DNA from: Antedon mediterranea
Taxonomy: Eukaryota > Echinodermata > Crinoidea > Comatulida > Antedonidae
Length of the DNA stretch: 64,000 bases
Reading direction: 5' to 3'
Assembly: GCF_964355755.1 (NCBI RefSeq)
Contig: NC_092679.1
Location: 1,364,001-1,428,000 of the forward strand
A model generated the notes under the pieces. That model saw only the letters and a program-made list of their open reading frames with translations, did not search any database and was not told the DNA's origin. A program made the translations under genes and the position numbers. Of the stretch, positions 1 to 35,900 are shown piece by piece. The first letter of the stretch is position 1; each line of letters starts with the position of its first letter.

Positions 1-1759
1 ACACTGGGTCGAATCATCCCGGGTCGAATCGTCGAGGCTTTGCTTGTTGTGTGTGGGAAGATTGCTAGCCTAAAATAACTCTAATCTAGGCCCTAGCCTC
101 TAGGCCTAGCCTATAGCTTAATAATACCCACGGGACCACATGCCTAGATATTTTATTCTAATTAAGGAGATTCGAGGGGATGATACTTCTCACAGAACAT
201 TGCTTCATTTAATTTATCTCTCCTACTAAACATAACAAATCAGCCAAGTTAGAAGCTAGGCTAGGCCTACCGTAGGGGCCTACAGGGATAGAGGAGGTCG
301 TCGAGGACGTAGTAGACAGCGATTCCCCAACAACAAAAATAAATTTATCAGTATCGATGGCGCGCCACTCATGACATATTTTAAATAATATCCACATACC
401 TCTCCCCTCTCGAAATCTGTCTCGCAATATTTTACACAAATTTAAACATTGGCTTTAAAGGCACCTCGTGATCAAATTGAATGAGGCAAAAGTTGGCGAG
501 AAGTGGAATCTGTACAATTGGCAATAAGCCCAAAAGAAAAACAGTTATGAAATACCTTTTTCAACTTTGTATGTATCCGTCTCATGGGTATGAACATTAA
601 TAGAAAAATGATATATCCGAATCTGACAATTAATATTGTTTATCAACAGATCTAATGGGGTGTGTAGGCCTACCGTTATAACAATATATAATAAATTGAC
701 AAATTTACTGTAATTTCTTTTGAAACCAAATTATTTAAACAATAATTAAAGGTATTAATTAAAAAGATTCCTATGCGATTTGCAAGCCAAATTAAGGCAT
801 GTACGGTCCGTATACGGTAAGTTAATTTTCTCTCAAAACAAGTTTCATAGCCTTTAAGGCCTAAATGATTATTGAATATACATCTTATATTACAAGTTTC
901 CTCTAAAATAACATCAAAACAAAATGAAATTGATGACATTGAAACGTAATCAAATCGGACAATAAAACCATTACAATGTGGCGGGTTTGTGGAGGAAACA
1001 AGTTTACTGGAAATGTTAGACCTAAATACATGTATTGACTTTCACTATAACAGCTCAAGGTCTAAATTCTATTTTGAAAAACCATTATTTCACAGAATTT
1101 CAAACAACAATCTACATTATGGCGTTTTATACGTATACTTAAAAGAAAAATCGAGTAAAAGACAAATTTACAGACAAAGTCTAGTGTATAGATATGATTT
1201 GTGTTAATTTGACTTGGTTATGTTTAGCAGTGGCAGATTAATGCGGAGCCAGGATTTATTGTAACATGCCGTATAATACTCTGTCAATGATATTATTATA
1301 ACAACATTTATGACCTTAGTGAGTGACAGCGTTCACAGCAAATCAGAAAATACAGTAGGCCCGGCCATATACTTTTTTAAGTAGACTGCCTTTTTTTTAA
1401 ATTTATGTATTCTTCTAAAAAACTAATTATTACCAACAGTTCATATTATTGGAATAAATATGAATTACTTTGCTGCTGTCTTTGGTAATCAACTTGCATA
1501 TTGCCTAGCCTTACAAAGATGCATTTTTAATTTTATGTATTGTGTGGTTACAAGCTTTATTATTATATTACGTCATTAAACTTTGGCTTTAGTAATCAAA
1601 TCGAGGACCATCTAAAGTATCGGTAAATACATGCTCACATAGTGATAAACTTCATTTTGTGAGATCAAGGAAACAAGTTGACACACATAGAATATTCGCA
1701 ATACAATCTTCTTTAATTCGAGCAGGTTACCAGTAAGATCGGTGGACGGATATTTACAG
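1..1759. other. Upstream region, no supported gene
   Basis: I see no coding region I can support. The first 40 bases hold two copies of the 10-mer GGGTCGAATC. TAGGCCTA octamers occur near 111, 262 and 665. The rest is AT-rich. Short open frames on both strands have no family resemblance and no plausible splice context, so they are not called. Confidence 0.5.
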
Positions 1760-2722
1760 ATGAATTACTCGAGCTACAATGATACATATGGGACCAGGAC
1801 CGAGGCAATATCATGGGATTTCACTGATGTAGCATTTGTCACTGTTTTTTTCACAAGCATCATCAGTACTGCTGGCATGTTGGAAAACCTGATTGTTGTT
1901 TTGGCTGTCTGCTGCATTCGTCAACTTAGGAAGAAGCCAAATGTCTTACTTGTTAACTTGGCCGTCGCTGATTTTATGTGTGCTTTTTTCAGCTTGTTTG
2001 TGTTGTTTGTAGGAGAAAGTACTCCACCTTGGTGGTGGGGGTGGTTTGGAGTGAGCATCTTAAGAACAATGATAAGCGTAATGACTTGTTCGTTAATATT
2101 TGTTCTTGCTGTGAGTATGGAACGGTTCATAGCTATTTCTGCTCCGATAAAATATCGAGACATTATGACAGGAAGGAGATTAGCAATACTGTGTATTTGC
2201 TTATGGATATCGGCTTTTTTATATATATATATAATAGTTTTTTGGTTTTATTTTTCCTCTGTAGAACTCAGTTTCGCATTGACCATAACTATTGGATTTG
2301 TGTATATCTTAATGTATTTTATTTTAATGTATACAACAAACCGTGGACACACGGCAGCCGGATCTGTTAAACAGAAACGACTACGATCAGTATTTATCAC
2401 ATTTAGTATTCTAGTATTTTCTCTGTTCTTGTGTTTAATACCAAATCAAATATTGCTGTTAATCGATTACAATCTGATAAGACATTCGACCACCGTGTTC
2501 TACTATCGTTGCTTCGAGAATGGTCTTTGTTATTTTATTACGTTACCGCTTTTGATGATGAATTCTGCTTTAAATCCCATCGTTTACTGGTGGCGTATTC
2601 CTGAGTTAAGAGACGGAATCAAACGTGTACTGTGTTCGGGACTGTGTTTCGTATGTGTTCGTTCTGGACCAGAAAATAGAAACAATCAAGGAAACCAGGT
2701 TGAAGACGAGCAGCGGATGTAG
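1760..2722 (+). CDS. Rhodopsin-type GPCR, copy 1 (the only intact copy)
   Basis: Single-exon class A seven-transmembrane receptor of 320 residues; ligand unknown. The first in-frame ATG (1760) follows TTTACAG directly, so a spliced 5' leader is possible. Visible motifs: N-glycosylation sequons at residues 2 and 7; TM1 with LEN (N43 = 1.50); TM2 NLAVAD (D71 = 2.50); TM3 ends in MERF (E121-R122, in place of DRY); TM6 has P228; TM7 has NPIVY at 272-276. The usual Cys 3.25 and any Cys in loop 2 are absent, while loop 3 has C-x5-C (C251, C257). The tail holds several Cys (292-299) that could be palmitoylated. It heads an array of five same-strand paralogs, which resembles the lineage-expanded GPCRs described in sea urchin, but I cannot prove membership. 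Function as a sensory receptor is inference. Confidence 0.88.
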   Translation: MNYSSYNDTYGTRTEAISWDFTDVAFVTVFFTSIISTAGMLENLIVVLAVCCIRQLRKKPNVLLVNLAVADFMCAFFSLFVLFVGESTPPWWWGWFGVSILRTMISVMTCSLIFVLAVSMERFIAISAPIKYRDIMTGRRLAILCICLWISAFLYIYIIVFWFYFSSVELSFALTITIGFVYILMYFILMYTTNRGHTAAGSVKQKRLRSVFITFSILVFSLFLCLIPNQILLLIDYNLIRHSTTVFYYRCFENGLCYFITLPLLMMNSALNPIVYWWRIPELRDGIKRVLCSGLCFVCVRSGPENRNNQGNQVEDEQRM

Positions 2723-3239
2723 GATGCATAGGCATAGGCCTACAGATTAAGTCGCCATGCAACATCTATCTCTGAAAAACTTATGAACATAACATCTCAC
2801 TAGCATTTTAAATAATGTACAGGCATAGGCCCTAGTGTATCTGAATGTTATTTTTGTAGAATTATTCTTCTTATTACTGTATTCAGAGTCTTCTACACAC
2901 CACAATGTTTAAGTAATGTTGTTATAGTCTTGTTTTATTTAATGAAATTGCTTTGTACTAATGCTTTAGTAATCGTTACCTTTAAAATTTGAAAAATTAG
3001 TAAATATTAAATAGACAGTTAATATGTTATACAAATGCAAGAGAAAGACAACCGTGCCATACCGATATATGTTTGGTAATCGGTAATACAAAGTGATGAT
3101 GTAATGTAAAGAGATGATGTTATGGTATCTGGCAAACGTTCCATACAACATGGTTTAAATAGAAATTTTAGCTTTGTTTTTTTAAATTTATTATTAGTTT
3201 ATGTATATATTTTTTTCTTTTTCGTATTTAATGTTATAT

Positions 3240-3361
3240 CTTGGGGTGGGTCAAACTTAAAGTCTTTATGACTTATACGACTCTCCTCCCACATAATCAC
3301 TTTATTGCATTTATGTATATATTTTATTATATTGTGGAAATAAATTGAAATTGAAATTGAA
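3240..3361 (+). mobile_element. Probable non-LTR retrotransposon 3' tail
   Basis: AT-rich segment ending in AATAAATTGAAATTGAAATT, a short tandem (ATTGAA) tail of the sort left by CR1/L2/RTE-like insertions. No coding part remains. The class is a guess from the tail alone. Confidence 0.3.
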
Positions 3362-5012
3362 CTATATCGCTGATTTCTTGTTATTGGAATATGAATTTAC
3401 TCTGACGTATTGTGATTTTAGAGTATACTTTCTGACATAGCTTTGTTTCTTTTTTTGTGTGTGTTTATTCATTTCCATTGATTAAAGTATTAAAGTTTGT
3501 TTACATAATAATATATGTTGGGATTAATCTAATCATGTGATAATTAAATACTGCCCCCTATGGGTGTTACTTCCCCCTATAATTGTAACAGTCTTTTTCA
3601 AATGATTTGCTTTCTTTTGTATTCATGAACCGGTCAAGGAAGCAGATAGTTTTGTCTCTTATGTAATTAAAGATCTGATTAAAAGGACCATAATGATCTC
3701 TATTGTTATGCTAAAAACAAATTAAAACCAAATACACCACCGGACCGTGGTGGTAAAAGTGAGAAAAGGCGTGTTTTTTCCTTTTGTGTTGTCGTCCACA
3801 TCCTTACATATAATAGTCAGGGTCATGTCAAGAAGTAGGCCTACAATATTACGAGATGACCATAATATAAACAAACAAAATTTTTTTTATAATTAATTAA
3901 AGAATACATAACACAGACAAGACAAGTACAGTACAATTACAGATAAAATGTGCACAAAGTATCAGAGCCTAAGTATCAGCTTGAGTATAAAAAAATATAG
4001 GGCCTAATGCTTCTTAAACTTTATGTTCTTGCGGAAAACAGGGAGAGAATACTATTTTTTTACGTGGACGTCAAAGCCGTTAGCATAGAAGTTGACCAGA
4101 GACTGATCAGTCGTCAAATGTTTTATGTTTGACTAAGAGGATCTTCAGTAGGCAATGGTCGCTAAACCAACTAAATAATGGCGATAATATACAGCACATA
4201 CAGGTAGTACAGTAAAGGCCAATTTACACAGACGAGAGGTAACGGAAAGCGGTAAACAAAAATATAAGCGGAAACGCCTCCTACAGGATAGGTAGGCCTA
4301 CAGGCCGATGAAAAAAGACTATTAATTTCTGGATGAATTCTGGAGTCATAAAAATTAATTTATGATCCAACGTGGTTCTTAGAAAACTACCTTAATATTC
4401 GGAGACAATATTTAATACTGTAGGCCTACCAGCAGTTTATATTTACTGAATATAATACACAATTTGTATCAATGTTACTCTAAAATAACATAATTAAACT
4501 TGGCCTTTTTTTGGATTGGTATAATAATGGCATTTTAGCTGGAACAAATAATAACTACTCTCTTCAAAATTGGGAATTAGTAGAAAGTTTGAATTTAAAT
4601 AATAATTTTATTTACTATTTTAAAAAGCTATAGGCCTCCTGCAAGACAAATTAAAGACATTTTCCTTGAAAGAAAAAATTAAAATGTTTTGTTTTTGGTT
4701 GAAAAAGATATTGTACCACCCGATAAAACCATAATTTAAAGAAAAATAGTCAGCCGGAAGCGGATTGTCGGGAAGTCATTGGGGTTTTTTCCTAAAATTT
4801 AGGGCCTAACCGTTTTTTCACTTTTGTAAGAAAAATTTTAAATTTTGTTTCTTTTTTGGCAAAACTACAAAATGGCCTATTCAAAGTTTAATTTTATTCA
4901 TAACTAATGTTTCGGAGAATAGATCACGGTAATACTGTAATAAATGCATGATTATTATTTTCTAAAAATAATTGTGTCAATACTATATCAAACTGTTAAT
5001 GTTTAGAGCCTC

Positions 5013-5062
5013 TTACCTAGAGTTTCTATTACAAGTTTTTTATAATAAGAAACTCTAGGTAA
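5013..5062. repeat. Perfect 15-bp inverted repeat (hairpin)
   Basis: TTACCTAGAGTTTCT at 5013-5027 is matched by its exact reverse complement at 5048-5062 with an AT-rich spacer. It lies about 210 bases upstream of GPCR copy 2. It may be a remnant of a small palindromic transposon. Confidence 0.6.
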
Positions 5063-5274
5063 AGTATAAAGTAACACTATTAAACATTAGATTTCTTAGT
5101 TGGTACCACCAAATTGAACAATATAATGTAACCCAAGCATAAATTGTTTAAAACAGTTTTTGTTTAACTTTCTCTGCTTTACTGGAACTTCGTTGCAAAT
5201 TATGCAATATACAGATGATCTATTTTACAGATTCCCGATTGTAGGCCTTCAACGTTATTTTATAACTTTAAGAG

Positions 5275-6195
5275 ATGAATTACACGGAGACAGAAAAAGT
5301 ATACCCTATGGATTATTATATTGATTATGAGGATATTCCCTTTATCAGTGTTTTTTTCACAAGCATCATCAGTGCTGCTGGCATGTTGGAAAACCTGATT
5401 GTCATTTTGGTTGTCTGCTGCACCCGTCAACTTAGGAAGAAGTCAAATGTTTTAATTGTTAACTTGGCCGTCGCTGATTTGTTATGTGCTTTTGGTAGCT
5501 TTCTTCTTTTGTTTGTACGTAAACGAACGTATGATTTCAATGAATATTTCATCATAATCATGATGCTAACCATAATGACTTGTTCGTTAGTGTTTGTCCT
5601 AGCTGTAAGTATGGAACGCTTAATAGCTATTGCATTTCCGATAAAATATCGATACATTGTGACAGGAATGAGATTAGCAATACTGTGTACTTTCATATGG
5701 GTATCGGTTTCATGTGTAATTGCTTATCTTTTATATTCTTTTTTCGGGTACACTATTTCGCCATCGCCTGTAACAATACTGAGTTTCGCATTGACCATAA
5801 TTATTGGATTTGTGTACATTTTGATGTACTTTATTTTAATATATACATCAAATAGTGGAAACACGGCGGCCGGATCTGCTAAACAGAAACGACTACGATC
5901 AGTATTTATCACATTTAGTATTCTAGTATTTTCTCTGTTCTTGTGTTTAATACCAAATTAAATATTGCTGTTGCTTGATTACTATAGTATACTATACTTC
6001 TCCCGTTGCTTATGGGGAGGTCTTTGTTATTTTATTACGTTACCGCTTTTGATGATGAATTCTGCTTTAAATCCCATCGTATACTGGTGGCGTATTCCTG
6101 AGCTAAGAGACGGAATCAAACGTGTACTTTGTTTTCTATGTGCAGAAAATGGAAACAATCAAGGAAACCAGACTGAAGATGAACAAGAGGTGTAG
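5275..6195 (+). pseudogene. GPCR copy 2, single nonsense mutation
   Basis: Tandem paralog of copy 1. Frame is open from ATG 5275 to TAA 5959-5961, then continues in the same frame to the natural stop at 6193-6195 (307 codons in total). Copies 1 and 3 have CAA (Gln, just after the TM6 proline) where this copy has TAA, so one C-to-T change breaks it. The product would stop after TM6 and lack loop 3, NPIVY and the tail. MERL replaces MERF at TM3. The C-x5-C pair of loop 3 is still encoded downstream of the stop. A splice-acceptor-like CTATTTTACAG lies about 45 bases before the ATG, as in the other copies. Whether this is fixed or a polymorphic null allele cannot be told. Confidence 0.85.
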
Positions 6196-7536
6196 GATGT
6201 TGCCGTTAAAGTCGTGAAACATGAAACATATACAGTTTTTTTCTTTTTCTTCTTCCTCTTCTCCTCGGGAAAAACAAAAGATTTTGAGGTTTGGTGTTGT
6301 AAGTCTGTTTAAAGTTGTTATTTTATTTGATGTTTTTATCCGTGCCTATATTTATTTTAATTGTTATTTTATATATTTGTTTACTCATAAGCCATAATTG
6401 GCTAGTCAAGAGTGTGAGTAGATAAATAAATAATACAAACGGCTACATATTGGCAAGTATGGGAAAGGATGTGTGCTTAGCGATACTACAGTCTCAGCAA
6501 TTGGACACAGTAACATTATCCACTTGCAAGTAATATTGTTATAGATAATATTAGTACAACTGACTTTCAAGTATTCAGAATAATATCTAATGGTGAAAAA
6601 TCTGATTCTTTAAATAATTTACGCCTTATGTTGTGCCAATAGTTATAGTCCGGCAGCCAAGGGGTTTAACCTTGCAATGTTTTCTATATATATTTTTTTA
6701 TGGATTTTGATTCTCGATAACGTCAGAATTAAGATTATTTTACTGGACGGCTGTCAGCATTGAGACATTTGCATAACTAGCAAACAAAATAGCCGCTATT
6801 TTTTTTTTATAAAACATGCTATATCTCTGGAAATACTGGACGTAGTGAGATAATTTTGGTGTCAAATTGTTCACAATGTATGTTTATATTAGCTCTAACA
6901 GAAATTGTCAAGTATTCAGAATAATATCTAATGGTGAACATCTTATTCTTTAAATAATGTACGCCTTATGTTGTGCCAATAGTTAGGCCTTTTTATACGG
7001 GGATAGAAATTATACAACTTGACGTGACTGAGACTTAGATGTAGCATCTGAAAACCCTTTAAAGTTCAATAAAGTGTTAAATAGAAGACCTAAAAATAGT
7101 TCAGTATATTCATTACTTACAATATTAATAATAAAAAATATAATTAATTAGCAATATTAATTAATCAGAAAATTGTAAAAAGTGACAAGAACATTGTTTT
7201 ATCACCATGCATGTTGCTTATGATGTCATATTGTCCTCATCATCCGAAAGAGTAATTTTAATTAAAATTTCGTAATTAGTCTATTTTAATCAAGTGGAAT
7301 TATTAATTTAGGATTTAGAAACTTTAAAATATTCTTCCTTTCTTTCTTTGAATTACTAAAATATTAAGCCAACGACAATATAAAGTAACCCAAGCATAAA
7401 TTGTGTCAACAGTTTTTGTTTAACTTTCTCTGCTTTACTGGCACTTCGTTGCAAATTATGCAATATAGGCCTACAGATGATCTATTTTACAGATTCCCGA
7501 TTGTTGGCCTTCAACGTTATTTTATAACTTTAAGAG
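6196..7536. other. Intergenic, GPCR copies 2 to 3, with duplicated flanks
   Basis: No gene. The 3' flank of copy 2 (about 6196-6640 and 6985-7270) reappears behind copy 3 (about 8426-8880 and 9050-9330), showing that the unit duplicated was larger than the coding region. A roughly 75-bp stretch starting CAAGTATTCAGAATAATATC is present twice within this spacer (near 6568 and 6910). Confidence 0.6.
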
Positions 7537-8425
7537 ATGAATTACACGGAGACAGGAATAGTATACCCTATGGATTATTATGAGCCTATGCCCTTTATCA
7601 CTGTTTTTTCACAAGCATCATCAGTGCTGCTGGCATGTTGGAAAACCTGATTGTTATTTTGTCTGTCTGCTTCACTCGTCAAATGTTTTAATTGTTAACT
7701 TGGCCGTCGCTGATTTTTTATGTGCTTTTGGTAGCTTTCTTCTTTTGTTTGTACGTGAACCTATGAATGATTATAATGAATATTACATCATAGTCATGAT
7801 GATAACCGTAATGACTTGTTCGTTAATATTTGTTCTTGCTGTGAGTATGGAACGCTTCATAGCTATTTCTGCTCCGATAAAATATCGACACATTATGACA
7901 GGAAGGAGATTAGCAATATTATGTATTTGTGTACTTACGTTTCTATTTCTTTATAATTATTTTTATTTTTATCCTGTTATTCTGAGTCTTACATTGACCA
8001 TAATTATTGGATTTGTGTACATTTTGATGTACTTTATTTTAATGTATACAACAAACCGTGGACACACGGCAGCCGGATCTGTTAAACAGAAACGACTACG
8101 ATCAGTATTTATCACATTTAGTATTCTAGTATTTTCTCTGTTCTTGTGTTTAATACCAAATCAAATATTGCTGTTAATCGATTACAATCTGATAGGACAT
8201 TCGACCACCGTGTTCTACTATCGTTGCTTCGAGAATGGTCTTTGTTATTTTATTACGTTACCGCTTTTGATGATGAATTCTGCTTTAAATCCCATCGTTT
8301 ACTGGTGGCGTATTCCTGAGTTAAGAGACGGAATCAAACGTGTACTGTGTTTCGTATGTGTTCGTTTTGGACCAGAAAATAGAAAAAATCAAGAGGACCA
8401 GGTTGAAGATGAACAAGAGGTGTAA
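7537..8425 (+). pseudogene. GPCR copy 3, two deletions, mosaic sequence
   Basis: Paralog with the copy 2 leader and ATG (7537). Two deletions relative to copy 2 break it: one T lost from a T-run at 7603-7608, and about 16 bases missing near 7681 in the first intracellular loop. From the second deletion onward TM2-TM7 is open to the stop at 8425, with MERF, loop 3 C-x5-C and NPIVY intact. An ATG at 7580 opens a 281-residue frame that replaces TM1 by unrelated residues, which is unlikely to fold as a normal receptor. The 3' half is nearly identical to copy 1, but the leader, first part and 3' flank are copy 2-like, indicating gene conversion or unequal exchange. Confidence 0.82.
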
Positions 8426-10262
8426 TATGTTACCGTTCAAGTCGTGAAACAGCAATATATACAGTATTTTTCTTTTTCCCTCGGGAAAAAGAAAAAAAGA
8501 GTTTGAGGTTTGGTGTTGTAGGTTTGTTTAAAGTTATTTTATGTTTTTATCCGTGCCTATATTTATTTTAATTGTTATTTTATATATTTGTTTACTCATA
8601 AGCCAGAATTGGCTAAAGTCTTGTAATTTAAACAAGAATGGGATTAAATAAATAAATAATACAAACGGCTACATATTGGCAAGTGGAGAGGATGTGAGCT
8701 CATACTAGAGCCTCAGCTATTGGACACAGAAACATCCACTTGAAAGTAATAGAGTTATAGTATTAGTACAACAACTGGCTTTCAAGTATTCCGAACAATA
8801 TCTAATGGTGAAAAATCTGATTCTTTAAATAATTTAGGCCTACTCCTTATGTTGTGCCAATATTTAGACCTTTTAGACGGGGATAGAAATTAGAAAAGAG
8901 GAAGACGGAAAAGAAGGTGAGGAGATGATCTAACAACATACACTGGAACGGCTGCATGGACTAGGACAGCAAGAATTAGACAGAAATGGAAATTTTATGA
9001 GGAGGGCTTCATTCAACATATGGATGAACTATGCTTAGATAGACAACAACTTGACGTGACTGAGACTTAGATGAATAAGGTTATATAAATAGAAGACCTA
9101 AACATTGTTCAGTATATTCATTACTTAGCAATATTTAATTAATTAAAAATATAAATTAATTAGAAATATTAATTAATTAGAAAATTGTAAAATAACAAAA
9201 AAGCGACAGGAACATTATTTTATCACCATGCATGTTGCTTATGATGTGATATTGTCCTTATCAACCGAAAGAGTAATTTTAATTAAAATTTCGTAATTAG
9301 TCTATTTTAATCAAGTGGAATCATTAATGTTCTTCTTTTCTTTCTTTGAATTGGTAAAATATTAAAATATTAAATATTAAAATATTAACCAAAGACAACA
9401 AACAGCAAAGAACATGAAGAGAAAAACCTACAAAAAAAAGATATAAAAAATATCTAAACAACCACAAAAATATCTTTCAAGGGGATTTTATTGTAAAGCT
9501 TTCTATATTGTTTTAATTAATGAAAATAGCACAGTTTGTATGCTTTAAGTCTTATCACTGTAGGCTATACCACATTGCTTAAGTACAGTAGTTAGTTTTA
9601 TTAGCCTACAATTAATTAAATGATAATATTAATTTGCTTTTTGTTACTTTTGATATTTTGTGGATTAATGAATATTAAAGACATTCGAAACAATAGTTAT
9701 AATGTGCTGTATTTTGTTAATGTTTTTAAAAAAATGACGACCGTTTACAGATAAATGATAATTATAAAAATAAATGATGTAAATAAAGAGGTGATCATGA
9801 TGTCATGACGGTGTCCGGCGAATTTTCAACACAAGTACTTATCAAATTGACACATGAATATAGGGGGCAGCATATAGGAACAAAAAATACGCCAAGATAA
9901 AGCTTTACTTTTATATAACATGTGGTTGTGTTAGGGCTATTAATCCTAACCACAAAAGTCAGACAATATCTGTAATAATACTTGGTCATGAAAAGCCAAT
10001 GATAAAAATAAAATTTAATTTCTTTCGTAACTCTAGGTCTGTATCTAAAAAAAAGAATCTTTGTAATTAATGATGTTTATGGTGCCAGTAAAGTGTCAAG
10101 ACAATAATTAATATTACACAGGCAGTTTTACAGCCTCTTCTTTAATTAATGATTATTCTTCGAAAATGCGTCAGCAAACATTCAATTTTCCTCCATTGGT
10201 AATTAAATCGAATACTATAAAGCAAAGCACATAATGGCAAACTTCAGTTGTGAATAAATCAA
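8426..10262. other. Intergenic, GPCR copies 3 to 4
   Basis: No gene. It begins with the duplicated 3' flank shared with copy 2, includes a retroelement coding fragment (8895-9069), and continues as AT-rich sequence up to the 31-bp minisatellite. Confidence 0.5.
8895..9069 (+). mobile_element. Non-LTR retrotransposon C-terminal fragment (tentative)
   Basis: Reading one frame gives a basic RGRRKRR stretch, then an in-frame stop, then DDLTTYTGTAAWTRTARIRQ, KWKFYEEGF and a stop at 9067. This is the pattern (basic-rich, then TAWxRxAxxRxxW) seen at the C-terminal end of many LINE reverse transcriptases. The element is a dead fragment. The matching flank of copy 2 (near 6995-7030) lacks most of it but keeps the final bases, so copy 2's flank probably suffered a deletion. 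Confidence 0.4.
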
Positions 10263-10615
10263 GCAAGCAGGTTGACACGCACCGAACGCACAAGCAAGCA
10301 GGTTGACACGCACCGAACGCACAAGCAAGCAGGTTGACACGCACCGAACGCACAAGCAAGCAGGTTGACACGCACCGAACGCACAAGCAAGCAGGTTGAC
10401 ACGCACCGAACGCACTAGCAAGCAGGTTGACACGCACCGAACGCACTAGCAAGCAGGTTGACACGCACCGAACGCACAAGCAAGCAGGTTGACACGCACC
10501 GAACGCACTAGCAAGCAGGTTGACACGCACCGAACGCACTAGCAAGCAGGTGGACACGCACCGAACGCACTAACAAGCAGGTTGACACGCACCGAACGCA
10601 CTAGCAAAACAGTTG
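10263..10615. repeat. 31-bp minisatellite, about 11 units
   Basis: Units starting GCAAGCAGGTTGACACGCAC repeat every 31 bases (10263, 10294, 10325 and onward to 10573), with a decayed last unit at 10604. Variation is almost limited to one A/T site. It lies 290 bases upstream of GPCR copy 4. Minus-strand open frames across it are a by-product of a stop-free unit whose length is not a multiple of three. Confidence 0.93.
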
Positions 10616-10904
10616 GCCATTAATAAAGTCAACCATATACAAAAGGAAAACTTGTTTTCTGCGAAATCTTTTTCTGAAATTAACTTTCTCAAGGTACCTG
10701 TTAAAAAAAAAGGGGCCGTGACATTAATAATTGGGTTGAAGTACATTTTTTTCGCAAAAATTAACAGAATGCAAATAATGATTATTCAAATACTATATAT
10801 TGAACAATAATCTATTTTACAGATTTACGAACGTTCTATTTGCAGTTATATTTTTGCAAGCCATCATTTTATAACATAGTTTCACCATCGACGAACTTTA
10901 AGAG

Positions 10905-11847
10905 ATGGCTTACTCAAGCAATGTGACATATGGGGCACCGACACCTTGGCAATGGTGGTATCATCCTCGTCCGGATCCGGATATTGCCTTTATCACTGTT
11001 TTGTTCACTAGCATCATCAGTGCTGCTGGCATGTTGGAAAACATCATTGTTATTGCCGCTGTCTGCTGTATTCGTGAACTTCGGAAGAAGTCAAATATTT
11101 TACTTGTTAACCTGGCCGTCGCTGATTATTTTAGTGCTTTTTGCAGCTTGTGGGTGTTGTTGTTTGTAACGCAAGTCGGGTATAGAATTGCAATAGACAC
11201 TATAGTAACACTGATAACCGTAATGACAAGTTCGTTAATATTATTTTGTTCTTGCTGTCAGTATGGAACGCTTCATAGCTATTGCATTTCCTTTCAAATA
11301 TAAATACGTTGTTACAGTAAAGAGATTAGCAATATTATGTACCTGCTTATGGGTATCGGTTTCACTTTTGTTGTGTTGGTGTTTCAAATGGAAAATGCCT
11401 ACTATAATTCTGAGTTTCGCATTGACCATACTGATTGGGTTTGTGTATATTTTAATGTACTACATTTTAAAGCATACAACCAACCGTCGACATACGGCGG
11501 CCGGATCTGTTCAACAAAAACGGCTACGATCAGTATTTATCACATTCAGTATTCTATTATTTTCTCTGTTCCTGTGTTTAATACCAAACCACATATTATT
11601 GCTGTTGATTTCTAGTGCATTTGACTATGACTCTCTATTCTACGTCCGTTGCTACTATGACGGTCTTTGCTTTAATATTTCTTTACCGCTTTTAATGATG
11701 AATTCTGCTTTAAATCCCATCGTATACTGGTGGCGTATTCCTGAGTTAAGAGACGGAATCAGACGTGTACTGTGCTGCTGCGTATGTTCTCGTTCTGGAC
11801 CAGAGAGCGGCGCAACAAGGGCCTTGGGTCAGGGGGTGCAAAGATAA
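10905..11847 (+). pseudogene. GPCR copy 4, 4-base insertion
   Basis: Paralog with ATG 10905 and stop at 11845-11847. An extra ATTT-like 4-mer at about 11238-11246, within TM3, shifts the frame; the upstream frame then ends at 11303 and the rest (from MERF at 11263 through NPIVY) is open in the next frame. Without the insertion the length would be 313 codons, in line with the other copies. Loop 3 retains C-x5-C, and the tail is distinct (CCCVCSRSGPESG). The N-terminus and loops 1 and 2 are unlike the other copies, while IL1-TM2 and TM6-TM7 are nearly the same. Confidence 0.82.
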
Positions 11848-11864
11848 CAGTTTTTCAGATTATT

Positions 11865-12040
11865 AATTTATGACCCAATGTAGTATACTTGGAGTAACGT
11901 ATGACAATAATTTATCATGGGGAGAGCATGTAGATCAACTAATTAAAAAATTAAATACTAGACTGTACTGTTTGAGGAAAATGAGAGTTTTTAGGGTTAG
12001 GGAAGAGATACTTACTTACTATGTTTTATTCATCTGTTAT
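11865..12040 (+). mobile_element. Reverse transcriptase fragment of a non-LTR retrotransposon
   Basis: One frame reads LGVTYDNNLSWGEHVDQLIK followed by KLNTRLYCLRKMR and an LTYYVLFI stretch. LGVxxDxxLxWxxHV...RLxxLRxxR is the well-known segment after the catalytic region of Jockey/CR1/RTE-like reverse transcriptases. About 55 residues remain, then similarity fades. It sits just after the stop of GPCR copy 4. Confidence 0.75.
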
Positions 12041-12403
12041 TTTTTCAATCTGGGATTATTGTTAGACCCAGTCAATTTCACCCCCCTGATCCCTCACTGT
12101 AGGCTGGAACAGTAAATTCAATCTTTATTCTACACGCAACTGCATTTATATATTGTTCATAATTGTAGCTTTTCTATTATTATTCTTTATTGACAACTGG
12201 GGATAACAGTGTCCAACATGGCACACAAATAGTAGGCGATACAAGCATGAAAATAACAATAACAAACTTGGATAATATTTTCACTAACTTTAAGAACTTC
12301 AAAAACAAAATTTTGACAGTAATAAAGATTCAATAGAAAATAAAAACATAAGGCTATGGCAATGTATATTACATGTTTGGCGTATGTGTGCAGTAAATGG
12401 GCA

Positions 12404-13417
12404 TTCACATAATGGGTGTCTCGAAAACAGAGACCTCGAAAACAGAGACCAGAGACCCCCACTAAAACGTCTCAATATTACGTAATATAGAGGGTCTCTA
12501 CAGAGACCCCCACTAAAACGTCTCAATATTACGTTATATAGGGGGTCTCTGTTTTCGAGTTTTTCACGAAACCAGAGACCCCCACTAAAACGTCTCAATA
12601 TTACATTATATAGGCCAAGGGGGTATCTGTTTTCGAGTTTTTCTCGAAAACAGAGACCCCACTAAAACGTCTCAATATTACATTATATAGGGGGTCTCTG
12701 TTTTCGAGTTTTTCTCGATAACAGAGACCCCACTAAAACGTCTCATTATATTGGGAGTCTCTTTTTTCGAGATTTCCCGAGACCCCCTAATATAATCCCT
12801 GTTTATTAAGAGTGTTGCAAATACCCACCAACGAGCTTGGTCATAAATTATTAAAACCCAACTTTTATCGCAAAAACCGTGAATTTATTATTGAAATAAT
12901 CTCCCGCTTTTTAGCTTCTAACACAGCATGCATCTTACTTCTGGGACGTCGACCTTGTATTCCAAAATGACAGTCTTTTCACACGCGTTCAAGAATTCAT
13001 CAATCTCTTCTTATCGTTGCGGCATTTTCTTTGATCGGCATACGTCATTCTGTGATTTTGAGACGTTTTAGTGGGGACCCCCTATATAACGTAATATTGA
13101 CTTAATATTGAGACGTTTTAGTGGGGGTATCTGTTTTCGAGAACTCGAAAACAGAGACCCCCTATTACGTAATATTGAGACGTTTTAGTGGGGGTCTCTG
13201 TTTTCGAGTTTTTCCTCGAAAACAGAGACCCCCTATATAATGTAATATTGAGACGTTGTAGTGGGGGTCTCTGTAGAGACCCCCTATATTACGTAATATT
13301 GAGACGTTTTAGTGGGGGTCTCTGTTTTCGAGATTTTCTCGAAAACAGAGACCCTGGGTCTCGGGTCTCTGGTCTCTGTTTTCGAGGTCTCTGTTTTCGA
13401 GACACCCTTCACAGAAT
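12404..13417. mobile_element. Fold-back transposon with nested hairpin arrays
   Basis: The element (12414-13407, 994 bp) starts GGGTGTCTCGAAAACAGAGA and ends with the exact reverse complement. It is flanked by TTCACATAAT (12404-12413) and TTCACAGAAT (13408-13417), a 10-bp target duplication with one mismatch. Each arm (about 12414-12790 and 13060-13407) is an array of 70-80-bp units holding GAGACCCCCACTAAAACGTC, an AATATTACGTAATAT-like palindrome, and an inner hairpin GGTCTCTGTTTTCGAG / CTCGAAAACAGAGACC. The two arms are inverted to each other around a 250-300-bp non-repetitive centre. A 9-11-bp duplication fits the Mutator-like superfamily, but no transposase is present, so the class is inferred. 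Confidence 0.85.
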
Positions 13418-13796
13418 GCGTGAAGCTCGGTCTGCACTTCTACCATACTGAAACTCTCATGCTCACATAATTTAAGTATGTAGTTCTTTCTTTCTGTTTG
13501 TTGTTGATTTACTTTATATTGAAAGTTTATTGATTTTAAAGGAATTGATTAAATTTAATTCTGCTTTATTCATAATTTCAATCTTGAATACATTTATTTT
13601 TGACAGCTTTTTATTTCATTACCTTCACTCGTAAATGAAATCGGTACCTTGAGACATTTAAGGGTAAGAGTTACGATGTGTCGTGATACATTAATCATTA
13701 ATTTTGTAGATTTGATTTGTTAGATAAACCTGACATGTAATAATTCAGAATGCGTGTAGTGGTAAATTTTATGTTTTCTTAAAAGTATAACAAGTC

Positions 13797-14457
13797 ATGA
13801 TGATGTCATCGGTTGTGTCAACATTAACCTGCTGATGGATTTCATGTTAAAACATTACATTTGATTAATGTTTAGCATCAAATTTACTTTGAAGTACTTT
13901 GATTGACATAATGATGTCATCGGTTGTGTCAACATTAACCTAGCGAAGGATCTCATGTTAAACTTTAAATTTGATTAATGTTTAGCATAACAAAATAGTA
14001 TTTTTTGCCATCCTTACTGTAATAAACACATTTATTTATAAATAAAATTGTATTCCCACTGGGAAAGTAAAAGTTAAGCTAACATTTGTAGCATCTACTG
14101 TATATAAATAAATGTGCACTTTAAACAAACCTAGCACATCTTTCTAGACAAGTAGGGGGTTACCCTAGTGTACTAGTATACACACAGCCACTGTCACACA
14201 CAGACACTTATCATAACTCATCATTAGGGCCCCTTGATTGTCAGCATACGCTGTTTAGGGTCACCCTCTATAAATAAGGTTGAATAAAAATAAACAAAAG
14301 TTCTTAAGACAAAATAAAAGTTTTAAAATATGACATACCATGTTCAATGGCGTTCACACGCCTGTTGGTGATTTTAATTGCCTCATCTAGTGTGATGAAC
14401 GAAGTCTGAAGAGAAGCCAATATCACTAATAATTCAACCGCTTTAGCATAATTCTTG
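13797..14457 (-). pseudogene. Duplicated fragment of ATP6V1D (exon 6 plus intron)
   Basis: This segment repeats 19.0-19.67 kb with only scattered differences. It holds the 3' two thirds of ATP6V1D exon 6 (14339-14455), still reading ASLQTSFITLDEAIKITNRR without stops and followed by the same splice donor. The homology breaks at about 14457 inside the exon, so the acceptor and the rest of the gene are missing. It also carries a 115-120-bp internal repeat (units containing GATGTCATCGGTTGTGTCAA). It is a dead segmental duplicate placed inside the GPCR array, about 5 kb from the real gene. Confidence 0.9.
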
Positions 14458-15186
14458 TTAGTAGGACAAAATAAAGTTACAAGATAAACTCTCTTCTTAA
14501 ATTAAAAAATCATACATTTATTAAAATAATAATTTTAATTACTTAAGATATACTATAGGTGACGATCTGCATTCTTTTTATTTTAAAGTTAGGCCTACTA
14601 GATATGTTTTCTATTTTGTATTTTTATCTTGAGTTTTTTTTTTAAACATTTATTTGTATATAAATGCTTCTACATTTGTGTACTGCTTTATTTATCTGCC
14701 AAATGAATTTAATTTTGGATAATAGTCTAAGTTGATTAGATTTTGTCAGTGAGTTTTTAAAAGAGAATTAAATATCTTGTTTCTACTAAAATAACATACT
14801 TATTTCTCAGTTGGCCATCGACCATCAATAAAGCCAACCAAATTCAAAGTTTTCGAATAGATAGATATCTATTACTATTTACCATAATATTTATAATTAT
14901 ATGTATTGTGAATGTATAGTGAATGAATAATAAATGGCTGAATGGCCTTAAGAAAAAAAAAGGCAAATTTGCGGAATGTTGACGCATCCTTATTCATATA
15001 GAGTTATTGTATTTCTAAAATTAACTTTCTCTAAAGGTATCGGTCAGAAAAGGTGCCGCATATAAATACAAATTGATTATCAGGATATAATAAGGATAAA
15101 ATCTACTAATCTATTTTACAGATTACGAGCGTATACGTCATTTTACCATTAGTTTCATTATCAACGAAGCAATTAACTTAAAAGAG

Positions 15187-16097
15187 ATGGATTTTTACTT
15201 TTACAATTGGAGTTGGCCATCAAACGGTTACGAAAGCTTGGATCTTTGTTGGGATCCTTACAGCATTCCGTGTTTGTCTTCTGTAAGTGTTTTGTTCACA
15301 AGCATCATCAGTGCTGCTGGCATGTTGGAAAACATGATTGTTATTATCGCTGTCTGCTGCATTCGTCAACTTAGGAAGAAGTCAAATGTCTTACTTGTTA
15401 ACTTGGCCGTCGCTGATTTTTTAAGTGCAATGTTCTTGTTGTATTTAAAAAGTATGCATATATATGCATATCATGTTATAACAACAATGATAATCGTAAT
15501 GACTTGTTCGTTAATATTTGTCCTAGCTGTAAGTATGGAACGCTTCATAGCTATTGCATTTCCGATAAAATATCGATACATTGTGACAGGAAGGAGATTA
15601 GCAATACTGTGTACGTTCTTATGGGTTTCGGCTTTAATATATTTATGTTGTGTTGTTGACGAGACCGCTGGATTGACGACGAGTTTCGCATTGACCATAA
15701 CTATTGGATTTGTGTATATCTTGATGTACTTTATTTTAAAGTATACACTTAACCGTGGACACACGGCAGCCGGATCTGTTCAACAGAAACGACTGCGATC
15801 AGTATTTATTACATTTAGTATTCTAATCTTTTCTTTGTTTCTGTGTTTATTACCAAACCATATATTATTGTTTATTAAGTATTATTCATTCTTAACACGT
15901 TGCGTCGATTTCGCTAGAGTGTTTGCTATAAATTTTCTATACCGCTTCTCATGATGAATTCAGCTTTAAATCCTATGGTATACTGGTGGCGTATTCCTGA
16001 ATTAAGAAGCGGAATCAAACGTGTACTGTGTTTTGTTGCGTTTTGGATCAGAAAAAAGAAACAATCAAGAGGACCAGACTTAGGTGGTCTAGTATAA
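15187..16097 (+). pseudogene. GPCR copy 5, one-base deletion in TM7
   Basis: Paralog with ATG 15187. Frame is open through TM6 and then hits TGA at 15952-15954; one base is missing at about 15925-15941 relative to the other copies. In the shifted frame TM7 follows with NPMVYWW and an RKKKQ-rich tail to TAA 16095-16097 (304 codons in total if the base is counted). MERF and the TM2 Asp are kept. The second Cys of the loop 3 C-x5-C pair is lost. The truncated product would lack TM7. Confidence 0.82.
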
Positions 16098-29882: not shown

Positions 29883-30647
29883 ATGAATTCTACGGACATT
29901 CCAAATATTATCCATTTCAAAATGAAAGAAGCAAAGTTCACTGCACTATTCTCCCTATCAAACATAGACTTTAGAAAAATACCAATGGAACAATTTGTTA
30001 AAATGTTAAATCTGAAACATCTTTACCTCAGCAAATGTACTATCAAAGGAAAACTTCCTGATGTTTTTACTAATTTCGTAAACTTGATGACTCTAGATTT
30101 ATCCCACAATGCAATTGAACATATTTCTGACGAATCTTTTGAACATTTTCCTAATCTTAAAAAACTCCAGTTGTCTTACAACCGACTCAATTCAATACCA
30201 AGGACTGTTAACAAATTGGTTAGTTTAGAAGTACTTGTTTTATCAAATAACTCATTGGTCGAACTTGCCCCCGAGATTGGCGAGCTTCAGTTATTGAAGA
30301 AGCTTGACGCCGAGGATAATCTTATAAGAGAAATTCCTTGTTCTCTGTTTGCTGGTGACTTAGCAAAAAGTTTAGAATATCTGAACTTGAGTGGCAACTT
30401 ACTTGATACTTTACCCGTACAAGTTGGACTTCTGGTAAATTTGGAAGAACTAAATATTGGAAGAAACCAGTTTGTACGTCTACCAGCGTCTGTTAAAGCG
30501 TTGTTAAAACTAAAAGCATTCCATTACGGTGATAACGATTGGATGGTTTGTCCGCCAACTTTGCGCAGAGTACCGGCAACAAATCAAGCTAGTTTCGGAC
30601 CGCTTGCACTCGAGAAAATCTACAGTTATATTTATCCCGATGTGTAA
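29883..30647 (+). CDS. Leucine-rich-repeat protein, single exon
   Basis: 254 residues from ATG 29883. About seven LRRs in tandem (LKHLYLSKC, LMTLDLSHNAIEHI, LKKLQLSYNRLNSIP, LEVLVLSNNSLVEL, LKKLDAEDNLIREIP, LEYLNLSGNLLDTLP, LEELNIGRNQFVRLP), spaced 22-24 residues, then a cap with W(M)VCPPTLRRVP and YSYIYPDV. There is no signal peptide or membrane segment, so an intracellular scaffold of the plain LRRC type is likely. I do not recognise a specific ortholog. The N-terminal 35 residues hold no known domain. The transcript may have an upstream non-coding exon. The frame is clean. Confidence 0.85.
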   Translation: MNSTDIPNIIHFKMKEAKFTALFSLSNIDFRKIPMEQFVKMLNLKHLYLSKCTIKGKLPDVFTNFVNLMTLDLSHNAIEHISDESFEHFPNLKKLQLSYNRLNSIPRTVNKLVSLEVLVLSNNSLVELAPEIGELQLLKKLDAEDNLIREIPCSLFAGDLAKSLEYLNLSGNLLDTLPVQVGLLVNLEELNIGRNQFVRLPASVKALLKLKAFHYGDNDWMVCPPTLRRVPATNQASFGPLALEKIYSYIYPDV

Positions 30648-32923: not shown

Positions 32924-35900
32924 ATGCAAAATAATAAAGATGAAATAATTGAGAATGATCGTGTAAATATGACTAGATTAGAATCAAATCCGCAGCCTTT
33001 AAATAATACTGAAGAGTCGACAGTTAATTCAAGTAAAACTGACAGTAGCTTTGCAGAGGCTGTTTCAAATAGCAAATCACATGACAATGTACAGAACTTA
33101 GAAACTAAAAAATCAGACAATGATATTAAAACTCGACAAGGACGAGGGCGACACAAACATCGAGCAGAGGACAAATCAAATGAAGTCGTCAATGTTGGGA
33201 ACAATTATAAGGAACATGTAGATGGTGTTGGTCACACGGAAAATAATACAGAACATTCTGGAAGTGTGGGAAAATGGGAAAAGAAACTGGAGAAAAAAAA
33301 ACTTGAATATAAAGAACAAAAACATGATTTAAAACAAAAGTTACAGGACACGAAAACAAAATTTCAAGAGGAAGTAAGTATATCCTACTGACTAATGTCT
33401 TTTATTATTATGTATATATTTTTTAATATATAAAGTATCAATGAATTGCAATCAGACTATAAGTGAGTTAAGGTCCTATGTAAAGCACCTAGAGGGGTCA
33501 GTGATCCATTAGGCGCTATATAAATACTGTTTATTATTATTATTATAAGGTCTTAATATTTCTTAAAATTCCAAAAAGAAAATTTAGTGAAAAAAAAACA
33601 CATAAATAACAGTATAGTATTGATTTCTATAAAGTAAAACCATCATGAAGCCCCTACTGTACAATGGGTCTATGCTTAAGCCCTTACTGTACAATGGGTC
33701 TATGCTTAAGCCCCTACTGTACAATGGGTCTATGCTTAAGCCCCTACTGTACAATGGGTCTATGCTTAAGCCCCTACTGTACAATGGGTCTATGCTGAAG
33801 CCCCTACTGTACAATGGGTCTATGCTTAAGCTCTGTCTACACTATCAAAATGGTTTGACCAAAAAAAAGTGTGATGTGCCCAAATATGGTGGTGATATGC
33901 CCAAATATTATAGTAGCATCATCATGTTCATAATATATGGCCACATCACATTTTTTTTATCCCATAGTTTGATCAGAGATGTAAAATAATATCCCTGGTT
34001 TGATAGTGTAGACAAGGCTTTAAAGTATATAATTTACACCCCAGGGTTGTCTTGTACCATGGAACTACAGTATAATATAATATCTTATATCATAAGACAC
34101 ACCTGCCCTACAGTATAACACAATTAATTTCATTCACATTGTATCTATATTCTAGCCACCATCTAAGCAAGAGGTAGGCAGTTGAACTTGGCATGTGTAT
34201 GTGTTTTATGTACAGTTGTATTGTAATACTATATAGTGTTTGTTGCATGTTTTTATATAAAATAATATATATAAAACCGGAAAAAAAATGAATTCAATGA
34301 AGATACAAACAGAATACTATAAGCAAAATCAAAATGATAAAGTAATTTAAATCAGGCAGAAAGAAGTATAGAGCTTTCGGTAAAAAAAAAACCTCCAGTC
34401 TTTCATATTCATACACACTGTATCCAAACTATACAACACAATAGAATGTATATTAAAAGATGAACAACAATATAGTACAGTATCAAAATCATCAATATCA
34501 GAAATACATGTACAGTATGATAAATTACATGTCATTTTTCGTTTGAATCTAATTAACTACAGAATGGTGCCATAAATTTGAAGTGTAATTATTGACACAG
34601 TAATCAAACTCTGTGTAATTAAAGTTCCTTCAATGCAAACACATTTTATTGAGTAGTTACGACCAAACGTTTAAAAAAAAAGAAAATTTAACGAGAATCT
34701 TTATTGATTAACCTGTTGCTTTTTACGCAATTAAGCAATCCGCGGTAGAATTGATTGAACGCATAATATAAAGCGCTTGATTGGCCCTTTATCGACCAAT
34801 CATTTCTCCTACACCATGTAGAACAAGACAGGACTTAAAATTCTTGTATAAATTTCTTAATTCTATTTTAATTGTTTCGTTATTTTACTTTGACATCTCT
34901 GACATACTGTAATTTTCGCTTTGATCACCTTGTCAAATTTTCTTGCGTAAATGTCTGTAAAAATGGGTGTCTCTGTAGATTTTCGTTGTTCCTTAGATGT
35001 TTTGGTGTAACCTTTTCAATTTCAATGTATTATTGTATATGTTAATAATATTTTAATATTCAACTTGTTGGTGTTCACTGCTTGAAATAAAGAACGATCG
35101 GCAGGAACGTGATGTTTTTGTGATAAGCACTATTTACAATACCTTCTGCAATTATGATAAATGGTAGTTACTTGTTGGAGGTCACTTTATATTGTCTGAG
35201 ATAACAGTAGTGTCATTAGAAAACAAACATTTACATGACAAATAACGCACAAGTTTATTGTAATCCAGTAGCTACTGTCTCTGTATTGCTAACAATACAA
35301 AGAGAAGATTAAGGTACTTTGGTAACCATGGTAACCATGTCGTTAAGTTCCCTCGCATATAATTTATATTACAATTATGATCAATAACAACATTTTACTG
35401 AAACTCAATTTATCCTGTGATCCATTTTATTATAATTTTAAACACAAATAGTTGGTTGTATAGTAACATCACTGTGTATAGACTTAAGCCTTGTCTATAC
35501 TATCAAACTTTATGTGACAACAAAATGTGATGTACCCATATATGGACATGATGATGTCATATCACTACCATATTTGTGCATATCACTACCATATTTGTGC
35601 ATATCACTACCATATTTGGGCACATCACACATTTTTTTTGGTCAAAGTACAGTAGTTTGGTAATGTAGACAATTGTTTTCATATACAGTGGTAAGATCAA
35701 TAGTTGTTGGTGCAGTGCTATCTGGTATGGCAATTTAAATCCTTGTTTATACCATGTGTTTTTTACATACTATACTTTTAACATATTATTTTATGTTGTG
35801 ATACAATTAAAACGGAGATATGGTTTTGTAAACAGATCAAGAAGTATGAAACGGATTTATCCGACAAACGACGAGAATATTTGACACAGCTAACGGAACT

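Follow-up and report, generated by a model that had tools for sequence, protein, structure and literature searches.

The 64,000-nucleotide stretch of Antedon mediterranea DNA analysed here, which we call the window, contains a 994-bp repeat element (12414 to 13407). It lies between two frames of a cluster of single-frame receptor-like reading frames; two frames of this cluster were tested, and both match 7tm_1 (E values of 1.6e-24 and 5.6e-16). The positions given in a first-pass annotation of the sequence, 12404 to 13417, take in both target duplications. The parts of the element and other features of the window are collected in Table 1.

Table 1. Parts of the fold-back element and other features of the window (window positions)
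Feature	Position	Strand	Description
Left target site duplication	12404..12413	.	TTCACATAAT; 9/10 equal to right copy
Left terminal inverted repeat	12414..12458	+	GGGTGT, then two tandem 15-mers CTCGAAAACAGAGAC at 12420 and 12435
Left arm	12450..12795	+	array of 51-78-bp units, most of them a spacer (ACTAAAACGTCTCAATATTA...) plus a hairpin
Core	12796..13048	+	non-repetitive middle; ~185 bp missing after ~12888 relative to other copies
Right arm	13049..13362	-	same units as left arm, inverted array
Right terminal inverted repeat	13363..13407	-	100% complementary to left repeat
Right target site duplication	13408..13417	.	TTCACAGAAT; 9/10 equal to left copy
Receptor-like cluster	1742-15954		single-frame reading frames
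Tandem array	10260-10607		31-bp unit, 11 copies, 97%
Leucine-rich-repeat frame	29883-30647		254 aa
Tandem array	33648-33831		30-bp unit, 6 copies, 97%; open as PLLYNGSMLK repeats

The terminal inverted repeats, which the first-pass annotation had called exact, are so over 45 nt, and the near-perfect 10-bp duplication that it reported is indeed present at the two flanks. Further in, the arms remain 96% complementary over 115 nt (12445-12559 and 13215-13329). Tandem Repeats Finder gave arm unit lengths of 51, 71, 67, and 51 bp, and the spacings between units include 51, 71, and 78. The first-pass annotation had described inverted arrays of 70-80-bp units, each with its own hairpin. The inverted arrays stand, with the unit size better given as 51-78 bp; the hairpin is found in most units but not in all, since two 51-bp steps lack it. 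Where present, the hairpin consists of two inverted copies of the 15-mer CTCGAAAACAGAGAC with about 5 nt between them. The same 15-mer thus makes up both the tandem pair at each end of the element and the stems of the unit hairpins. At up to two mismatches it has 17 matches in the window, all 17 inside the element, where shuffles lead one to expect 0.05.

The proposal that the element can fold as a whole or piece by piece agrees with our in silico results. As single-stranded DNA, the element has a predicted folding energy of -347 kcal/mol, compared with -99 ± 5 for 20 shuffled sequences. Four hairpin-bearing pieces of the arms gave predicted energies of -12.8 to -19.6 kcal/mol (z of -5.9 to -10), and a piece of the core showed no excess of predicted folding over shuffles (z of +1). 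There is no open frame of at least 110 aa inside this copy, a six-frame reading of the fuller core of another copy found short frames only, and an Rfam search of window positions 12200-13700 gave no matches. The element is a non-coding fold-back transposon with hairpin-array arms made from its own end motif.

All evidence comes from one genome assembly (354 Mb in 18 contigs). The 20-mer end motif proposed in the first-pass annotation has 125 matches in it at up to two mismatches, 66 forward and 59 reverse, and none when read backwards as a control. We paired inward-facing ends within 3 kb of each other among the 100 of these 125 ends that were listed. Twenty-five fetched pairs, the window copy, and two copies reached from unpaired ends (L035 and L037) make up a set of 28 two-ended copies. 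Fifteen unpaired ends had been fetched; the 13 without a clear second end were left out of the counts, among them L026, which by eye has a decayed second end and similar flanks. The copies range from 68 to 2545 bp and have the border GGGTGTCTCG in common, the sequence by which they had been searched. Many contain a middle core of up to ~500 bp; scoring 40 of 161 candidates gave at least 69 matching pieces, no more than two in any copy. In a scan of the 28 copies, core markers were missing from L010 and from all 12 copies no longer than 662 bp. With a median identity of 0.97 (range, 0.71-0.99) among 12 cores compared pairwise, the family is fairly young; partial cores probably account for the low values.

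In the 28 copies the 15-mers follow a regular order: one or more outer 15-mers, followed by inverted pairs set apart by an oriented spacer. Together the copies contain 401 15-mers at up to three mismatches, compared with 0-3 for each of 20 shuffled 15-mers, and the number per element runs from 2 to 30. The long terminal inverted repeats consist of internal repeats and vary between copies, which is what marks an element as fold-back. The 22 nonduplicate copies hold 114 inverted pairs, 95 of them with a loop of 5 nt and 14 with one of 2 nt; the commonest other gap between 15-mers is 37 nt. A GGGTGT-like hexamer stands at all 44 ends of these copies (exact in 40), which follows partly from the search by end. 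Of the 267 internal 15-mers, one follows GGGGGT and none follows GGGTGT. We considered that units might have expanded locally, and this was not supported: units are as alike between copies (0.898) as within a copy (0.892), and the observed value was reached in 405 of 500 permutations. This comparison used 84 units, picked by an exact 14-mer, from 19 of the 22 copies. A concatemer of three exact 15-mers gave no matches at up to three mismatches.

Target duplications were then compared at all 28 copies. Exact 10-bp duplications flank 21, another five match at 8-9 of 10 positions, and the remaining two have an exact 9-mer (L018) and an exact 11-mer (L025). At a length of 10 the flanks agree at a rate of 0.92, compared with 0.23-0.35 at other lengths from 6 to 14; flanks that are not partners agree on average at 3.0 of 10 positions. 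Once a duplicate (L009) is set aside and the six copies at the GTTGTGATAC site are counted as one, 22 independent sites remain, of which 15 have exact 10-bp duplications, five match at 8-9 of 10, one has 9 bp, and one has 11 bp. The first-pass annotation had asked that duplication lengths be compared over many copies, and named other borders or a missing 9-11-bp duplication as evidence against it. Every one of the 28 copies has a duplication of 9-11 bp or a match at 8-9 of 10; a differing border was likewise absent, the border itself being the search query. The shortest copy (L003, 68 bp), two-ended and with flanks that match at 9 of 10, could have lost sequence once inserted and hence is no proof of a minimal end of 34 bp.

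We also looked for an empty site. When the flanks of one copy (L012) are joined with a single duplication, the resulting sequence has a match spanning the junction at C1:30394987-30395127 and a partial one at C4:9329651-9329759. The first of these is a paralogous empty site (L091) with one target-like 10-mer, GTTGGGATAT, equal at 8 of 10 positions, where filled copies have two. One frame of this natural empty site reads TNNDLEGYPNRLNRKGRHGK, and the flank in L055 matches a locus with a Pfam MULE domain (L043; 48% over 68 aa), so the copy at this site sits in a fragment of another Mutator-like element (MULE). The GTTGTGATAC site is common to 13 left flanks, all ending at the junction; the MULE fragment therefore multiplied with the element already inside. 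At L055/L056 and 12 other places we observed a short repeat with 32-bp inverted ends, in which the element occupies one fixed site in the MULE-gene fragment and has been copied along with it.

These data bear on whether the element is a transposon at all. One alternative is an inverted hairpin array, satellite-like or born of repair, that segmental duplication has spread, and some copies did spread as passengers of other repeats: 13 left flanks share the GTTGTGATAC site, and five copies lie inside five copies of a 17.5-kb MULE, three of which were compared. Against such an array stand the 22 independent sites with their differing flanks and 9-11-bp duplications and the empty site with its single target copy. 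For the copies examined this explanation is refuted, and for the family we consider its probability negligible.

A duplication length that fits Mutator-like elements, as the first-pass annotation had put it, is borne out by the 21 of 28 copies with exactly 10 bp; MULE superfamily duplications are 8-11 bp (PMC6446971), and those of the element fall within that range. The element encodes no D-D-E MULE transposase, which is usual for a nonautonomous member. Genome-wide, Pfam's MULE domain gave 36 matches. Comparing the coordinates of these and of 51 and 38 further protein-search matches with the 100 of 125 ends listed, we found no coding element with the element's ends; the one exception in this comparison is the element itself as a nested passenger.

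Several candidate partners were rejected. The 17.5-kb MULE appeared to be one, as it houses the element in five copies and the ends share CGAAAACA. However, its end matches that of the element at only 14 of 37 bases, its duplications by eye are 8 bp in six of nine insertions (one is 9, one is 10, and one is unclear), and the nested element, which lacks its left end, is carried along as a passenger. This MULE (L045/L046, C2:1368470-1385959) has ends GGTCAGTCTAATTACCGAAAAC with a 10-bp minisatellite, a PHD-finger and OTU-protease frame, and a 651-aa transposase frame. There are 213 termini of it at up to three mismatches, and five copies share a 100% identical 623-aa stretch. The MULEs L051/L052 and L053/L054 have other ends, and no end of the element's kind was seen in L069-L071. 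In L053 (C3:23572600-23582500), the second MULE spans 4196-9184, with a 707-aa frame beside a PHD-finger frame that has a weak OTU match, and ends in the minisatellite CCGGAAAAAACC; in L069, a 174-bp satellite array of ~20 copies (10-3440) adjoins the MULE relative. A copy of the element on contig C7 whose core is split by nearly 12 kb looked coding; the frames in the gap are retrotransposon-like by eye, and no partner was seen there.

By following weaker relatives, we reached a sibling family with ends GGGTGTCACGAAAC... and an 11.7-kb coding element (L072/L073, C4:32144210-32155897). This element begins with GGGTGTCACGAAACCTCAGACCACGAAAGCTCAGACC, contains an 874-aa open frame, has its other end at C4:32155897, and is flanked on both sides by the exact 10-bp duplication TATTAATTTC. 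The sibling family has 581 + 577 = 1,158 termini at up to three mismatches, with none in a backwards control, and exact 10-mers flank 10 of 12 of its elements (the coding element plus 11 short ones); the exceptions match at 9 of 10 (L085) and 4 of 10 (L083). Compared without gaps, sibling and element ends are equal at 29 of 37 bases, while the best match of the sibling end elsewhere in the window, on either strand, is 21 of 37. Like the element, the sibling has a GGGTGTC terminus, tandem 15-mers in the same register (positions 7 and 22, counted inward from the terminus), and a 10-bp duplication. It differs in its 874-aa frame, in a third 15-mer at position 54, and in 8 of 37 end bases; moreover, a scan of four short copies and the coding one showed no 15-mers paired in inverted orientation. 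Since the element lacks the sibling's exact terminal sequence and three-15-mer end, it falls outside the GGGTGTCACGAAAC family. The interiors are marginally similar, at best 41 bases at 78% (E of 0.015). The full-length, MULE-coding relative that the first-pass annotation proposed to look for thus exists as this sibling; no autonomous copy with identical ends was found.

The sibling encodes a MULE-type transposase. Its 874-aa protein has the D, D, C..H, and E positions of such enzymes: D287, D356, C377, H380, and E492 recur in three other MULE-type proteins, with one of which it aligns at 22% identity (E of 5e-18). In Pfam, the MULE scores are 33 bits for L051, above the cutoff of 27.6, and just below it for L046 (27.3) and L053 (25.8); the 874-aa frame itself has no MULE match, a SWIM match alone that falls below the cutoff (E of 0.035), and no PHD match. 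A second coding copy on contig C1 is 99% identical over 839 aa, with one end found; its left end was not found in 501 bases (best, seven mismatches of 22). The coding sibling also carries a 236-aa frame on the minus strand (L072, 9097-9807) with no Pfam match.

P/Galileo and hAT elements make target duplications of 7-8 bp, and the transposase of the P superfamily, Galileo included, is of the THAP type. That the element belongs to one of these superfamilies with shorter duplications would be in keeping with Galileo ends, which are long and internally repetitive and have several transposase binding sites (PMC3688188). Both the 10-bp duplications of the element family and the MULE-type protein coded by the sibling speak against it, and we judge this origin highly improbable. 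Common borders, 10-bp duplications at independent sites, an empty site, the lack of a long reading frame, and a coding sibling with a like end plan are the basis for reading the element as a nonautonomous MULE. Very probably, then, this is a fold-back, nonautonomous cut-and-paste family of the MULE superfamily, mobilised in trans by the transposase of a MULE with GGGTGTC ends.

Such a transposase, the sibling's or that of a lost closer partner, would bind the 15-mers, cut at the GGGTGT terminus, and insert the element with a 10-bp stagger. Internal 15-mers could act as additional binding sites; as ends they would be unfit because they lack GGGTGT. The number of units in the arms may vary among copies through slippage or recombination of inverted units, and their loss or reshuffling would account for the length range.

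Which enzyme moves the family is evenly balanced in our view: it could equally be a closer autonomous partner of the same class, decayed or missing from the assembly, in place of the sibling transposase. The element's ends differ from the sibling's at 8 of 37 bases, and the family is fairly young by its 12 cores, so that an active enzyme existed recently. Furthermore, diverged relatives of the sibling transposase, 42-56% identical and partly with stops, exist at C7:10380095-10382442 and C3:12903237-12904327. Against a closer partner, no such element was found: the 3.5-kb stretches on one side of these relatives (L089 and L090) have no end of the element's kind, and the C7 gap holds no partner, both being partial checks.

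Fold-back MULEs are already known, and the hairpin-array arms are an unusual variant of them. Tm1, a Mutator/Foldback family of root-knot nematodes, likewise has composite ends in which the number of 13-15-bp repeats varies; its duplications are mostly 9 bp, and some members carry a Phantom-like MULE transposase (PMC3169594). Its repeats are described as tandem in that report, whereas the units here contain an inverted 15-mer pair and the duplications are 10 bp. Tetris of Drosophila virilis is also nonautonomous and fold-back, with 8-10-bp duplications and no autonomous copy found, and the final parts of its ends are common to a second family (PMC4079207). It differs in its 220-bp repeats and in having only three structurally complete copies; that it is a fold-back MULE is a suggestion of its authors, who also state that most fold-back elements seem to be Mutator members (PMC4079207). 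Galileo has fold-back-like ends with several transposase binding sites and, unlike the element, belongs to the P superfamily (PMC3688188). Rehavkus has a 9-bp duplication, a PHD finger, and a minisatellite before its 3' end (PMC6446971), whereas our element has 10-bp duplications and is non-coding, and the sibling frame has no PHD finger. The 10-bp duplications likewise set the element apart from P/Galileo, with 7-8 bp. Drosophila FB elements have long ends of short repeats and 9-bp duplications. By this general description, they differ from the element in repeat sequence and unit plan. A search of the accessible literature, as distinct from the repeat collections Repbase and Dfam, returned no paper on this unit. 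Two things distinguish the element: units in which the terminal 15-mer is paired in inverted orientation, and the coding sibling.

A more tentative idea, which we think rather unlikely, is that the arms are arrays of predicted transposase binding sites and the element a site-only parasite of a GGGTGTC-end MULE. Each unit would descend from a mini-element (15-mer, spacer, inverted 15-mer) that lost its GGGTGT cutting end, and ~34 bp per end would suffice for movement, a length that the 68-bp copy points to. If this is true, the element would collect transposase while presenting no false ends. The role of Foldback and Phantom repeats is called untested in the Galileo report (PMC3688188). Here one genome holds a fold-back MULE family, its 28 two-ended copies spanning 68 to 2545 bp, together with a coding sibling of like end plan, which allows direct comparison. 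That comparison makes it testable whether long, repetitive fold-back ends serve as extra binding sites or are a by-product.
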